A stretch of DNA of 64,000 nucleotides. Origin: Sphingobacterium corticibacterium (lineage in GTDB: Bacteria > Bacteroidota > Bacteroidia > Sphingobacteriales > Sphingobacteriaceae). The position numbers and the translations under genes were made by a program. The stretch's first letter is position 1; each line of letters starts with the position of its first letter. Location: positions 248,001-312,000 of the forward strand of contig NZ_SGIT01000002.1 in the NCBI RefSeq assembly GCF_004208525.1, read 5' to 3'. Below are positions 26,967-31,992 of this stretch, piece by piece. The notes under the pieces are model-generated. The model saw only the letters and a list, made by a program, of their open reading frames with translations, did no database searches and was not told the DNA's origin.

Positions 26967-28274
26967 CTATTTATTTTCCAATAAGTAATTTTTGAAAAGC
27001 GCGTAGTCAGCAGACAATTCCGTTACTAATTTCGGCTTCCCAGCTAATTCCTCTGCTCCCTTTGGCAATTCGATTTTTGCAAATACTTCTTCGGAAATGG
27101 CATCTGGAAATTTACATGGATGGGCGGTTGACAAAAATACCGAAGCATATGTTCCCGGCTTATCCTGACGATATTGATTCGATGCGAGATAAGCAATAGC
27201 AGTATGCGGACAAGCGATATATTGATATTTCTGATAGAGTTCCTCCATAGCGTTTACCGTCTGCTCATCATCATACGTGTAAGAAGAAATCATGCTACGG
27301 AGTTCTTCTAGGCTGTTGGGGAACATATCTTGAATGCGCACCCAATTGCTCGGATTGCCCACATCCATAGCGTTTGCTAAAGTCTGCACAGATGGTTTCG
27401 GATCATAGCTGCCGGATTGCAAAAAACGCGGCACGGTGTCATTAACATTGGTTCCCGCAACAAAATGCTTCACAGGTAGTCCCATTTTATAAGCTAATAA
27501 GCCCGCACCGATATTGCCAAAATTGCCACTAGGCACGGTAAATACCACTTCTGAAATGCCTTGCGACTTCAATTGGGCATAAGCCCAAAAATAATAGAAT
27601 GTTTGAGGTATCAATCGAGCGATATTAATAGAGTTAGCAGAGGTTAACCGTAATACTTTATTAAGATCGGTATCATTAAATGCAGTTTTTACGAGTGCCT
27701 GACAATCGTCAAACGTACCATCAACTTCTAATGCCCGTATATTTTTCCCATTCGTTGTCAATTGTTCTTCCTGCACTTTGGAAACTTTTCCTTTCGGATA
27801 AAGTATAGTTACACGTGTACCTTCGACGCCCAAAAAACCAGATGCTACTGCTCCACCCGTATCTCCCGAAGTAGCGACCAAAACATCTAACAATTGATCA
27901 CCCTGCTTCGAAAAATAACCCATTACACGACTCATAAATCGTGCACCAAAATCCTTGAATGCATAAGATGGTCCGTGAAACAATTCCAGTACACCCGTTT
28001 CAGCATCCAAAAACCGAACAGGTGCATCAAAATTAATCGCGTCGGCAATAATAGCCTTCAAATCAGCATTCGGAATATCATCACCAATTAAAGCATTCGC
28101 CACTTCAAAAGCTATCTCCTGCAAAGAATACTGTTGAATCCGGCCAATAAAGGCGGAATCTAACGATGGAATGATTTCGGGCATATATAAGCCTTTATCT
28201 GACGGTAAGGAATTGAAAACGGCTTCTTGAAAGGAAACCCGAAGATCTTTATTATTTGTACTATATAATTTCAT
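26967..28274 (-). CDS. thrC: Threonine synthase
   Basis: 435 residues. The PLP lysine is in FHGPSYAFKDFGARF; the phosphate loop is VATSGDTGGAVASGF, and VTVPSGNFGN-type residues follow (FTVPSGNFGNI). It converts O-phosphohomoserine to threonine in the cytoplasm. Full length for the short bacterial form. Third gene of the thr operon; 25 bp after thrB. Confidence 0.97.
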   Translation of the reverse strand: MKLYSTNNKDLRVSFQEAVFNSLPSDKGLYMPEIIPSLDSAFIGRIQQYSLQEIAFEVANALIGDDIPNADLKAIIADAINFDAPVRFLDAETGVLELFHGPSYAFKDFGARFMSRVMGYFSKQGDQLLDVLVATSGDTGGAVASGFLGVEGTRVTILYPKGKVSKVQEEQLTTNGKNIRALEVDGTFDDCQALVKTAFNDTDLNKVLRLTSANSINIARLIPQTFYYFWAYAQLKSQGISEVVFTVPSGNFGNIGAGLLAYKMGLPVKHFVAGTNVNDTVPRFLQSGSYDPKPSVQTLANAMDVGNPSNWVRIQDMFPNSLEELRSMISSYTYDDEQTVNAMEELYQKYQYIACPHTAIAYLASNQYRQDKPGTYASVFLSTAHPCKFPDAISEEVFAKIELPKGAEELAGKPKLVTELSADYALFKNYLLENK

Positions 28275-28299: not shown

Positions 28300-29277
28300 T
28301 TATATTACTTTCGGCCCGTCAATATTTACAGGTGATACATATTTAAAACTGTCAATTTCACAATCCGTTAAATGCTGTTGGATGCGATTGGCCGCATTTT
28401 CCGCCGTTTCCTTTCCACGGGAAATCGCGACTACCGAAGGACCAGATCCCGAAATACCAAAACTAAGCGCACCTGCATCGAGTGCAATTTGCTTCATTGT
28501 GTAAAACTCTGGAATCAAAATGGCACGGGTAGGTTCGATAAGCACATCGTGCATACTGCGACTGATTAACCCGTAGTCGCTTTCATAAAGACCTGCGATT
28601 AATCCCGCAATATTGCCCCATTGTGTCACGGCATCTCGTAAAAAAACTTTTTCCTTTATAAGTTGTCGTGCATCACGCGTCGGCACATCGACCTTTGGAA
28701 ACACAATTCCGGCATATAGCTCTTCCGGAACAGGCAATTTGATCACATCCAAAGGGTGTTGTCCACGAATTAGTGTAATACCTCCCATCAAGGCCGGAGC
28801 TACATTATCAGCATGTCCATGACCGCAGGCAAGACGCTCTCCCTCCACACAGAAAGGCAGAAGCTCTTGTTTAGTCAACGGATTTCCCAAGAGGCTATTG
28901 ATAGCAAATAATCCCGCTACTGTACTGGCAGAGCTCGACCCTAAACCACTCCCAATAGGCATGTGCTTAATAAGCTCAATCTCCACACCAACTTCTTTTG
29001 AAACTCCTAGGTGCTCCAATAACATTTGAACACAAGCACTTACGGTATTTTTATCGGCATCTAGCGGCAGCCTACCGTCATCTCCAGCAATGGAGCGAAT
29101 GCGTACACCCGGGGTTGCTACACGATGCATAATAACTTCATCTCCCGGATAGTCTACCGCAAACCCTAATATGTCAAACCCACATATCATATTCGCTACG
29201 GTGGCCGGTGCAAACACCCGTACAACCTCCACAATGCTGTCGAAATCTATTTTTTTAACTGTTTTATTCTGATTCAT
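28300..29277 (-). CDS. thrB: Homoserine kinase
   Basis: 325 residues, GHMP kinase family. The ATP-binding loop is MPIGSGLGSSSASTVAG (about residues 105-121), and the C-terminal motif is GISGSGPSVVAIS. N-terminal FAPATVANMICGFDILGFA is typical of ThrB. It phosphorylates homoserine with ATP. 15 bp after the thrA stop. Confidence 0.97.
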   Translation of the reverse strand: MNQNKTVKKIDFDSIVEVVRVFAPATVANMICGFDILGFAVDYPGDEVIMHRVATPGVRIRSIAGDDGRLPLDADKNTVSACVQMLLEHLGVSKEVGVEIELIKHMPIGSGLGSSSASTVAGLFAINSLLGNPLTKQELLPFCVEGERLACGHGHADNVAPALMGGITLIRGQHPLDVIKLPVPEELYAGIVFPKVDVPTRDARQLIKEKVFLRDAVTQWGNIAGLIAGLYESDYGLISRSMHDVLIEPTRAILIPEFYTMKQIALDAGALSFGISGSGPSVVAISRGKETAENAANRIQQHLTDCEIDSFKYVSPVNIDGPKVI

Positions 29278-29292
29278 AGTGTCATTAACTAA

Positions 29293-31740
29293 TTATGCTC
29301 CCACATTGACCAAATCAGCGAATACACCTGCAGCAGTCACTTCCGCTCCGGCGCCAGGACCTTTTACGACCAACGGACGTTCTTTATAACGCTCTGTGGT
29401 GAACGAGATAATATTGTCACTTCCTGACAAAGCATAAAAGGGATGATTTTCGTCTACCATCTCCAGTGCGATAGATACTTTACCATCTTCCAACTTACCA
29501 ATGTATCGGATTACTTTCTTTTGGCTTTCTGCTTCTTCTTTTAATCCATTGAAATACTGATCGGCTTTCAACAATTCTGCATAGAAATCATCGACAGATG
29601 TAGCTTCCAAACAAGCTGGAGGAAGAATAGCTCCTAAATTAACGTCAGAAGGTTCAATCACATGTCCTGCATCTCTCGCCAAAATCAGCATCTTCCGCAT
29701 GAAGTCGATACCTCCTAAATCATCCCGTGGATCAGGCTCCGTATACCCTAATTCTTGTGCCTTCTTCACGATTTCATAAAACGATACATCCCCCGTAAAA
29801 TTATTGAATATATAAGAAATCGTTCCGGAAAGAATAGCTTCTATACGTACAATGCGGTCTCCACTCAACATCAAGTCTTTCAACACCCGAACAATAGGCA
29901 AGCCCGCTCCTACATTTGTTTCATAGAAAAAGTCCACCCCATATTTACGAGCAGTATCATGGAGTGATTTGTATTGCTTATAGTCGCCAGAATTAGCTAT
30001 TTTGTTGCAGGTAACAACCGAAATATTCGATTTGAATACATCTAAATAATAAGTAGATGGAAGTGGACTAGCTGTATTATCGATAAAAACACAGTTCGGT
30101 AAATTCATGGCTTTCATGCGTTCCACAAAACCAGACAAATCTGCAACTTCTCCCTCATCTTCCAATATTGTACGCCAATCTGACAAATCTATACCTTCTG
30201 GATTAAATAACATTTTTCTAGAATTGGAAATACCGGCAATTTTAATTTCCAGGTCGTTATTCTCTACCAAAAAGTCATATTGTTCATGGATCTGTTTAAA
30301 TAATGTAGCACCGATATTACCCGTACCCACATTAAATACGTACAGGGTCTTCTTTAGCTCCGCGAAGAATGCATCATGCACGGTATTCAACGCTTTCGCC
30401 ATGTTTTCTTTCTCAATAATAACGGATATATTGAGTTCCGAAGAACCTTGTGCAATAGCACGTACGTTGATACCATTTCTGCCCAATGCATGGAATAATC
30501 GACCGGACATACCCGGTGTACGTTTCATATTCTCCCCCACGATGGCCAATACCGAAAGATCATTTTCTACAGTAGGTAAAACCAGTTTATTCGCTTCTAA
30601 TTCCAGCTCGAATTCCGCTTTAATAAGCTGCACAGCTTTCGCTGCATCACTTGGATGAACAGCAAAAGTGATACTATGTTCAGAAGACGATTGCGTGATT
30701 AGCACGACATTGATCTGCTCTCTCGCTAACAAGGTAAAAAGACGACCACTGAATCCTGATTTGCCAATCATACCACTTCCCGAGACATTGATAACAGAAA
30801 TATCGGCAATAGATGAAATTCCTTTAATCGGATAAGCGGATTTCCCGCTTTCAAACTGAATAACCGTACCTGGAAACTCTGGTTCAAAAGTGTTTCTGAT
30901 CACAATCGGAATTTTTTTCAAAAAAGCCGGAATCATCGTCGGCGGATAAATTACCTTCGCTCCAAAATAAGAAAGCTCCATGGCTTCGTTGTACGACAGG
31001 GTTGGCTGCGAAAACGCTTTCTTTACAATACGCGGATCTGCTGTTAGCATTCCGTTGACGTCCGTCCAAATCTCGATAGCAGAAGCCTGCAATACCGATC
31101 CAAAAACTGCAGCCGTATAATCGGATCCTCCTCTTCCCAATGTAGTGATGCGGCCATTCTCGTTAGAACCAATAAAACCAGTAACGAATAACAGCTTGTC
31201 TGAATGGGTATGTGCAAGCGACTGAATGAGTTGATTTGTCACCTCCTCGTTAATATGCGCATGCCCAAAATTGGAATCCGTCTTTATATAATGAGAAGCG
31301 TCAACATACATGGCTTGCTCTACATATTGTTCCATGATTTTGGAGATCATATAGTTCGACAATCGCTCTCCAAAAGATACGATCAGATCTTTACTTTGTA
31401 AGCTTAGTTCCCGAAGTGCACTAATACCTTGCAAAATATCCTCTAGTTCATTGAGCATCAGCTTCAATTTAGTAAAAACCGGATTTTGATATTTTACCGC
31501 AATGAGTTTCTTCACCACCTCGAAATGACGCTCTTCCAATAATTTCAAATCTTCGTCAAAAGGGATACGCTCTGCCGCATTTTCTGCCATTTTCGTCAGT
31601 AAGTTCGTTACGCCAGCCATTGCCGACAACACGACCAAAGGTTTTTGTCCTTCATCGTAAGCGCTTTTGACAATACCTAATACCGCCTTTACACTCTCTA
31701 CGCTGCCAACTGATGTCCCTCCAAACTTTAATACTTTCAT
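29293..31740 (-). CDS. thrA: Bifunctional aspartate kinase / homoserine dehydrogenase I
   Basis: 815 residues. Aspartokinase domain about 1-290 (MKVLKFGGTSVGS; GRGGSDYTAAVFGS), two ACT regulatory domains about 305-460 (VINVSGSGMIGKSGFSGRLF; VLAIVGENMKRTPGMSGRLF), homoserine dehydrogenase about 465-815 (FNVGTGNIGATLFKQI; TNVGAGLPIVRVLKDL). It catalyses the first and third steps from aspartate to threonine and is probably feedback inhibited through the ACT domains. First structural gene behind the leader attenuator. Confidence 0.97.
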   Translation of the reverse strand: MKVLKFGGTSVGSVESVKAVLGIVKSAYDEGQKPLVVLSAMAGVTNLLTKMAENAAERIPFDEDLKLLEERHFEVVKKLIAVKYQNPVFTKLKLMLNELEDILQGISALRELSLQSKDLIVSFGERLSNYMISKIMEQYVEQAMYVDASHYIKTDSNFGHAHINEEVTNQLIQSLAHTHSDKLLFVTGFIGSNENGRITTLGRGGSDYTAAVFGSVLQASAIEIWTDVNGMLTADPRIVKKAFSQPTLSYNEAMELSYFGAKVIYPPTMIPAFLKKIPIVIRNTFEPEFPGTVIQFESGKSAYPIKGISSIADISVINVSGSGMIGKSGFSGRLFTLLAREQINVVLITQSSSEHSITFAVHPSDAAKAVQLIKAEFELELEANKLVLPTVENDLSVLAIVGENMKRTPGMSGRLFHALGRNGINVRAIAQGSSELNISVIIEKENMAKALNTVHDAFFAELKKTLYVFNVGTGNIGATLFKQIHEQYDFLVENNDLEIKIAGISNSRKMLFNPEGIDLSDWRTILEDEGEVADLSGFVERMKAMNLPNCVFIDNTASPLPSTYYLDVFKSNISVVTCNKIANSGDYKQYKSLHDTARKYGVDFFYETNVGAGLPIVRVLKDLMLSGDRIVRIEAILSGTISYIFNNFTGDVSFYEIVKKAQELGYTEPDPRDDLGGIDFMRKMLILARDAGHVIEPSDVNLGAILPPACLEATSVDDFYAELLKADQYFNGLKEEAESQKKVIRYIGKLEDGKVSIALEMVDENHPFYALSGSDNIISFTTERYKERPLVVKGPGAGAEVTAAGVFADLVNVGA

Positions 31741-31782: not shown

Positions 31783-31811
31783 AAAAAAGCCTTCCCATTT
31801 GGAGGAAGGCT
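31783..31811 (-). terminator. Attenuator terminator of the thr operon
   Basis: On the minus strand AGCCTTCC (31811-31804) pairs with GGAAGGCT (31795-31788), loop of 8, followed by six T (31788-31783). It lies 34 nt after the leader peptide stop and 42 nt before thrA, so reading through it is required for operon expression. Its 5' arm can instead pair with the leader peptide's end. Confidence 0.92.
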
Positions 31812-31845
31812 CTATATGTTATGTACACTTTCTTATACAATAGAA

Positions 31846-31914
31846 TTACTTCCTCCGATGAATAGCGCCGGTGGTAATAATAATCGTTGTTATAATAAGG
31901 TGTAAACTTTCCAT
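31846..31914 (-). CDS. thrL: thr operon leader peptide
   Basis: 22 codons plus TAA. The peptide begins MESLHL, continues with nine consecutive Ile/Thr residues (IITTIIITT, positions 7-15) and ends TGAIHRRK-like (GAIHRRK). In total 6 Ile and 4 Thr of 22. It resembles the enterobacterial ThrL only in composition and in the ITTG segment. No clear Shine-Dalgarno sequence precedes the ATG, as is common in Bacteroidota. The function is in its translation; the peptide itself need not act. Confidence 0.88.
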   Translation of the reverse strand: MESLHLIITTIIITTGAIHRRK

Positions 31915-31960
31915 ATTTTTGAAAAACGGTATAAATATAGGAGTTTTAATTTGAATCCAT

Positions 31961-31992
31961 CAAATATTTTTTCATTTCCATTAAAATTTCAA
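31961..31992 (-). promoter_or_regulatory. Candidate promoter of the thr operon leader
   Basis: On the minus strand TTG (31992-31990), a 21-nt spacer and AATATTTG (31968-31961), one mismatch to TAnnTTTG. It would start the RNA about 40 nt before the leader ATG. The rest of the gap between thrA and 32215 is A/T-rich and shows only this leader region and the divergent promoter at 32112-32142. Confidence 0.4.

Follow-up and report, generated by a model that had tools for sequence, protein, structure and literature searches.

We have identified, upstream of the threonine operon thrABC of Sphingobacterium corticibacterium, a 5′ element that is very likely a classical ribosome-mediated transcription attenuator, as judged from its sequence, its conservation and modelling of its folds. 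Comparison of related upstream regions indicates that this attenuator is real and is family-wide in Sphingobacteriaceae. The operon is probably read through only when threonine or isoleucine is short. The element carries the features by which the class is recognized: a leader, apparently translated, that is rich in codons for the operon product (with a coding signature, and present in 97 of 97 relatives), an intrinsic terminator between this leader and the first gene, and an antiterminator sharing an arm with the terminator, predicted to be freed by a stalled ribosome and hidden by a ribosome at the stop codon.

The thr operon and its leader

In the window (the whole 64-kb stretch of DNA that was analysed), thrA, thrB and thrC were identified by NCBIfam equivalog matches on the − strand, downstream of the leader and the terminator. 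The order on this strand is a Bacteroidota-type promoter, the 22-codon leader ORF, the intrinsic terminator and thrA.

29293..31740, − strand: thrA, bifunctional aspartate kinase/homoserine dehydrogenase (NF006959 above cut-off)
28300..29277, − strand: thrB, homoserine kinase (TIGR00191 and NF002288 above cut-off)
26967..28274, − strand: thrC, threonine synthase (TIGR00260 above cut-off)
31846..31914, − strand: leader ORF, 22 codons, ATG to TAA, peptide MESLHLIITTIIITTGAIHRRK (sequence; coding signature in relatives)
31870..31896, − strand: regulatory codons 7–15 of the leader, the Ile/Thr run IITTIIITT (sequence, conservation, pattern search)
31961..31964, − strand: promoter −33 element TTTG of the Bacteroidota type (pattern count in 97 relatives)
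31932..31939, − strand: promoter −7 element TATATTTA, 21 nt after TTTG in the window (same pattern count)

The promoter assignment comes from the pattern TTTG-N18..22-TAnnTT[TA], which was looked for in the 75 nt that precede the leader and was found in 50 of the 97 relatives, against 2.9 expected from shuffles; the spacer is 21 nt long in 49 of these 50. From the position of TATATTTA the leader RNA is expected to start a few nucleotides downstream of it. All elements named in the preliminary description of this DNA lie where it put them, on the − strand; the Ile/Thr run occupies codons 7–15 (31896-31870), and the T-run ends at 31783.

Chance occurrence and coding signal

Within the 64-kb window the nine-codon AYN run occurs once, and it did not arise in 100 shuffles. 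The same pattern occurs at two further places in the 5.1 Mb genome, both inside large genes, where the same bases encode a His-Asp-rich and an Asp-Tyr-rich stretch. In 27 of 20,000 dinucleotide shuffles an exact 8-mer complementary to the terminator arm appeared, the region folds with z = −3.6, and two terminator-like sites, one per strand, were found against a shuffle mean of 0.2.

The leader could in principle be incidental, with the run serving as an AT-rich pairing sequence and the terminator either ending an upstream or antisense transcript or acting as a constitutive brake. The region is indeed AT-rich, and the Ile/Thr run is engaged in RNA pairing (in the protector, on folding of native sequences). 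We consider this reading very improbable, since the gene upstream of the leader is divergent, leaving no upstream operon on the − strand to end here, since a run such as this one occurs nowhere else in the window and never in the shuffles, and since the leader behaves as coding sequence. Its reading frame is preserved in all 97 family sequences; gap lengths in the family alignment are divisible by three in 147 of 148 leader segments versus 122 of 212 in the linker; and the third codon position of the run is the freest (1.76 bits versus 0.62 and 1.14). The gaps in threes and the free third positions argue that the leader is translated, beyond any role in RNA pairing. The complementarity of strand 2 to the terminator arm and the association with thrA, both given below, also count against an incidental ORF.

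Terminator, antiterminator and protector

The elements of the predicted switch in the window are as follows.

31849..31856, − strand: strand 2, GGAGGAAG, the 5′ arm of the antiterminator within the last leader codons (sequence, fold, arm-swap)
31801..31808, − strand: strand 3, CTTCCTCC, common to antiterminator and terminator (sequence, fold, covariation)
31783..31812, − strand: intrinsic terminator, 31812-31803 pairing with 31796-31787, T-run 31788-31783 (terminator scan, covariation)
31834..31845, − strand: element X, TTCTATTGTATA, which forms the antiterminator's middle and inner helices by pairing with 31815-31810 and 31827-31822 (fold)
31845..31881, − strand: inner stem of the protector, strand 1 at 31881-31868 with 31858-31845, which includes strand 2 (native fold)
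31818..31907, − strand: outer stems of the protector, 31895-31887 with 31840-31833 and 31907-31900 with 31828-31818 (native fold)

Folded as far as strand 3, the RNA is predicted to form an antiterminator of 20 bp in three stacked helices: GGAGGAAG/CTTCCTCC, then TTCTAT/ATAGAG, then TGTATA/TGTACA. When the RNA before strand 3 is folded, a protector hairpin is predicted instead, in which the Thr codons UUACCACCGG pair with CGGAGGAAGUAA and the earlier Ile/Thr codons pair with element X in the outer stems; strand 1 is located in the Ile/Thr codons and the codons just after them. Element X is thus common to both folds, forming either the inner antiterminator helices or the pairing with leader codons in the protector. 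By inspection, X occurs in clade variants (UUGUA, UGGU and UUGUGU), and both its downstream partner (UACA, ACCA or AACACA) and its partner within the leader codons (ACAA or ACCA) vary by clade too. The eight exact pairs previously reported between GGAGGAAG (31856-31849) and CTTCCTCC (31808-31801) are correct. The element had been called a complete attenuator; everything then named is present, but the antiterminator extends to 20 pairs in three helices, and the protector and the promoter had gone unmentioned.

The pairing of the terminator is supported by covariation: in 60 relatives 95.8% of the cells are paired, with 78 two-sided changes, a level that 0 of 500 shuffles reach. Control of thrA translation by the leader, through re-initiation or masking of the start site rather than through transcription termination, is hard to reconcile with such a strongly covarying U-tract terminator between the leader and thrA, and with a thrA start that lies 42 nt past the T-run, outside the predicted switch. 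Thr leaders that have no U-tract terminator do occur in other Bacteroidota families, and a mode of control other than termination may thus exist among Bacteroidota; for the present element we regard it as highly unlikely and prefer transcription attenuation.

For the antiterminator and the protector, pair counts in the MAFFT alignment of 60 representatives are weak, with registers that shift between clades. The shifting registers and the scarce variation within clades led us to choose chimera and arm-swap tests instead. Native antiterminators are more stable than chimeras with distant relatives (−17.6 versus −14.0 kcal/mol), as are native protectors (−18.5 versus −14.7 kcal/mol), with a Wilcoxon p of about 1e-10 in each case, uncorrected for kinship. 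The effect is consistent and modest per sequence, a median of 21% of chimeras being equally stable. On arm swapping, strand 2 of sequences with CCTTCCTC-type arms pairs at −15.1 kcal/mol with its own arm versus −9.8 with other arm types; strand 2 of the other arm types gives −13.4 kcal/mol with its own arm versus −11.6 and −10.9 when swapped. Between clades, strand 2 tends to covary with the terminator arm, and complementarity is kept even where both differ.

The inner stem of the protector has 88% of cells paired in 23 sequences of the Sphingobacterium group, and the outermost stem is weakly conserved. A Mucilaginibacter/Pedobacter alignment shows a small excess in pair counts. The covariation proposed as a check in the preliminary description is seen for the terminator and, between clades, as a tendency for strand 2 and its arm; within a genus the covariation of the antiterminator is not above shuffles, its pairs varying almost only on one side. 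As pairs within a genus hardly vary or do so one-sidedly, support for the antiterminator pairing comes from the comparison between clades. The duplex energy of the window's strand 2 with a truncated arm is not significant alone (515 of 5000 shuffles).

We considered and rejected a second small ORF, starting with TTG just past the leader stop, for which GGAGG would be the Shine-Dalgarno site. This ORF is open through the terminator in the window; it meets an early stop in relatives such as L010 and L012, and GGAGG varies with the terminator arm.

Conservation in Sphingobacteriaceae

We compiled 97 distinct thrA upstream regions from 80 named loci of GTDB genomes and 30 loci from a family search, sampling Sphingobacterium, Pedobacter, Mucilaginibacter, Daejeonella, Hufsiella, Desertivirga and other genera. 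Orthologues without Ile/Thr runs or without complementary arms had been named beforehand as evidence against an attenuator; the Ile/Thr leader and strand 2 are present in every one of these regions, and a U-tract terminator was detected by scan in 96 of them. The exception (L015) was missed because its T-run is interrupted, and a stem-loop with a T-rich tail is still present there. In 20 additional loci from 16 genera a recognizable leader was found throughout, and a terminator accompanies it everywhere except in a single weak case (G019), for which the scan gave no convincing terminator.

A covariance model, R1, was built from 60 representatives and applied with a threshold of E<1e-5. It matches 170 of the 182 family genomes that encode ThrA, and among the 19 that do not it has no match; the ThrA-bearing genomes without a match belong to genera g5, g8, g9, g16 and g18. 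Of the matches, 20 were compared for their position, and each immediately precedes thrA in the same orientation.

Several individual loci deserve mention. A second R1 match in the genome of S. corticibacterium (C4:1543065) was rejected as an attenuator, being a terminator without a leader. In another family genome (G101, locus L238) thrA is preceded by two copies of the attenuator; they are separated by about 650-790 nt, a 187-codon ORF lies in the interval, and the Ile/Thr run of the upstream leader is shortened. In Pedobacter planticolens a Flavo-1 RNA (RF01705 above cut-off; L024:1076-1179) lies upstream of the thr leader.

Ribosome positions and the proposed mechanism

The effect of a translating ribosome was modelled by hiding the RNA as far as 12 nt beyond the first base of the codon in the A site, an assumed downstream footprint. 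With the A site at codons 7–16 of the window's leader, about 8 of the 8 pairs between strands 2 and 3 remain; at codon 17 the number is 5.8, at codon 18 it is 0.8, and no pair is left for positions from codon 19 through the stop codon. The suggestion that a stall at codons 14–15 frees the antiterminator strand thus agrees with the model. With no ribosome, three pairs are expected in the window, since the protector competes. In all 60 representatives the model gives more pairing of strand 2 with strand 3 for the stalled position than for the stop-codon position, as a classical attenuator would. For about half of the sequences the antiterminator is also predicted to form when the leader is not translated, and so the protector may be weak in these sequences. 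In L014, L021, L066, L104 and similar loci the leader ORF stops only past strand 2, and a finishing ribosome would there cover a different part of the switch.

We infer stalling, transcription-translation coupling, actual termination and the response to amino acids from sequence, conservation and structure prediction, and propose the following course of events. Transcription would begin just upstream of the leader ORF. When charging of Thr-tRNA or Ile-tRNA is low, the leader ribosome would stall in codons 7–15 and hide strand 1; strand 2 and X would then pair with X′ and strand 3 as the 20-bp antiterminator, the terminator would be blocked and thrABC would be transcribed. When both amino acids are ample, the ribosome would reach the stop codon and hide strand 2, allowing strand 3 to pair with strand 4, and RNA polymerase would stop at the T-run. 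If there is no translation, the protector would compete for strand 2 and termination would be favoured.

Leaders of other operons and families

Upstream of pheA in the same genome (L195, reverse complement of 2041-2560) a Phe/Tyr-rich leader, MITHHTYFYFNNFYFKR, lies ahead of a strong terminator, AAAAGTCCCGGATTACATTCGGGACTTTTTT, with a complementary strand CCGGGA; from this arrangement it is probably a Phe/Tyr attenuator. Upstream of hisG (L193:1350-1409) there is a His-rich leader, MTYLFTRHVHFHHRHFGDM, with a hairpin ATCGCC-ATTTT-GGCGAT just before its stop codon; a U-tract terminator was not seen at this locus. The similar appearance of the pheA and hisG leaders was counted in favour of the thr attenuator. 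In other families, R1 matches fall on Ile/Val/Thr leaders with similar terminators at ilvD (L235, L236, L240) and ilvA (L237), genes that were named by reading their translations.

In seven other Bacteroidota families (f2, f3, f4, f8, f9, f11 and f23) there are leaders that are rich in Thr and end in a short GC hairpin, mostly without a U-tract terminator, apart from single-locus exceptions such as L114 and L145. The stop codon lies in the hairpin loop in 19 of 23 such Thr leaders, versus 10 of 305 control small ORFs. These stop-in-hairpin leaders upstream of thrA (L115-L122, L129, L139-L143, L160-L165) resemble those of Sphingobacteriaceae in being rich in Thr and Ile and in lying mostly about 80-110 nt upstream of thrA; they differ in the short GC hairpin, the stop codon in its loop and, for the most part, the missing U-tract. 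Examples are ACCCC-TTAG-GGGT, CAACCC-GTTAA-GGGTTG and ACGGG-GTAA-CCCGT. One such leader (L143) is 198 nt before thrA, and a CATATnATCC-like motif often follows leaders of this type. The f2 exception L114 is nearer to the type in the window: its Met/Thr/Ile leader is short, and it has GGAGG as well as a hairpin of the sequence CCTTCCTCC. A clear Thr leader was not found in the sampled genomes of f5, f14-f17, f21, f28 and f34.

Tentatively, and short of the strength at which we would favour it, one may suggest that the Sphingobacteriaceae attenuator is structurally distinct and of separate origin from the enterobacterial one, with X pairing either with the hungry codons or in the three-helix antiterminator, and that it replaces the terminator-free stop-in-hairpin leader kept by most other leader-keeping families of Bacteroidota. 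If this is true, the phylum has switched its mode of thr control at least once.

Terminator-based leader-peptide attenuation requires a ribosome close behind RNA polymerase. In Bacteroidota, translation mostly starts without a Shine-Dalgarno site. A family-wide attenuator of the terminator type predicts transcription-translation coupling there, for which the thr attenuator offers a simple reporter. The covariance model also provides a means to annotate regulatory RNA that present databases miss at their cut-offs.

Comparison with known systems

Vitreschak et al. 2004 reportedly described attenuators of amino-acid operons by comparative genomics, some of them outside Proteobacteria, including Bacteroidetes/Chlorobi. 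The closest counterpart of the present element is the enterobacterial thr attenuator (RF00506, Thr_leader), which likewise has a Thr/Ile leader peptide ahead of thrABC, a U-tract terminator, a protector that spans the Thr codons and a strand 2 situated where the leader ORF ends. The Rfam model aligns end to end with the window element, over all 118 positions, at scores below its cut-off of 55 bits (29.4 for the window and at most 49.2 for ten relatives). The leader peptide scores 16.3 bits against the TIGR02077 cut-off of 22.95 and has no match to PF08254 (Leader_Thr); an E. coli control peptide passes both. The element appears to work in the enterobacterial manner and yet, by these scores, stands outside the curated families. 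The Sphingobacteriaceae element differs in having GGAGGAAG as strand 2, an extra inner antiterminator hairpin (X) and a promoter of the Bacteroidota type.

That the element is instead a metabolite- or tRNA-binding riboswitch (a T-box or similar) is extremely unlikely: a 5′ RNA with mutually exclusive hairpins ahead of an amino-acid operon would suit one, but none of the T-box and riboswitch families gives a match, Thr_leader being the best one in Rfam, and what is conserved is a translated run of Ile/Thr codons rather than an aptamer core. The leader-peptide attenuator remains the preferred reading.

Within the phylum, Flavobacterium psychrophilum has been suggested to use leader-peptide attenuation ahead of amino-acid operons (PMC9723704), and the kind of mechanism has thus been proposed before in Bacteroidota. 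The available text of that report names 5′ elements at pheA and hisG, where similar-looking leaders also occur in the genome of S. corticibacterium, and describes no thr element; the family and the structure are different from ours. In Bacteroides thetaiotaomicron, sORFs resembling leader peptides were mentioned (PMC7366714). For Sphingobacteriaceae we found no report of a thr attenuator in the open literature. The thr attenuator is of a kind known from E. coli, and here it is conserved across a family of another phylum.
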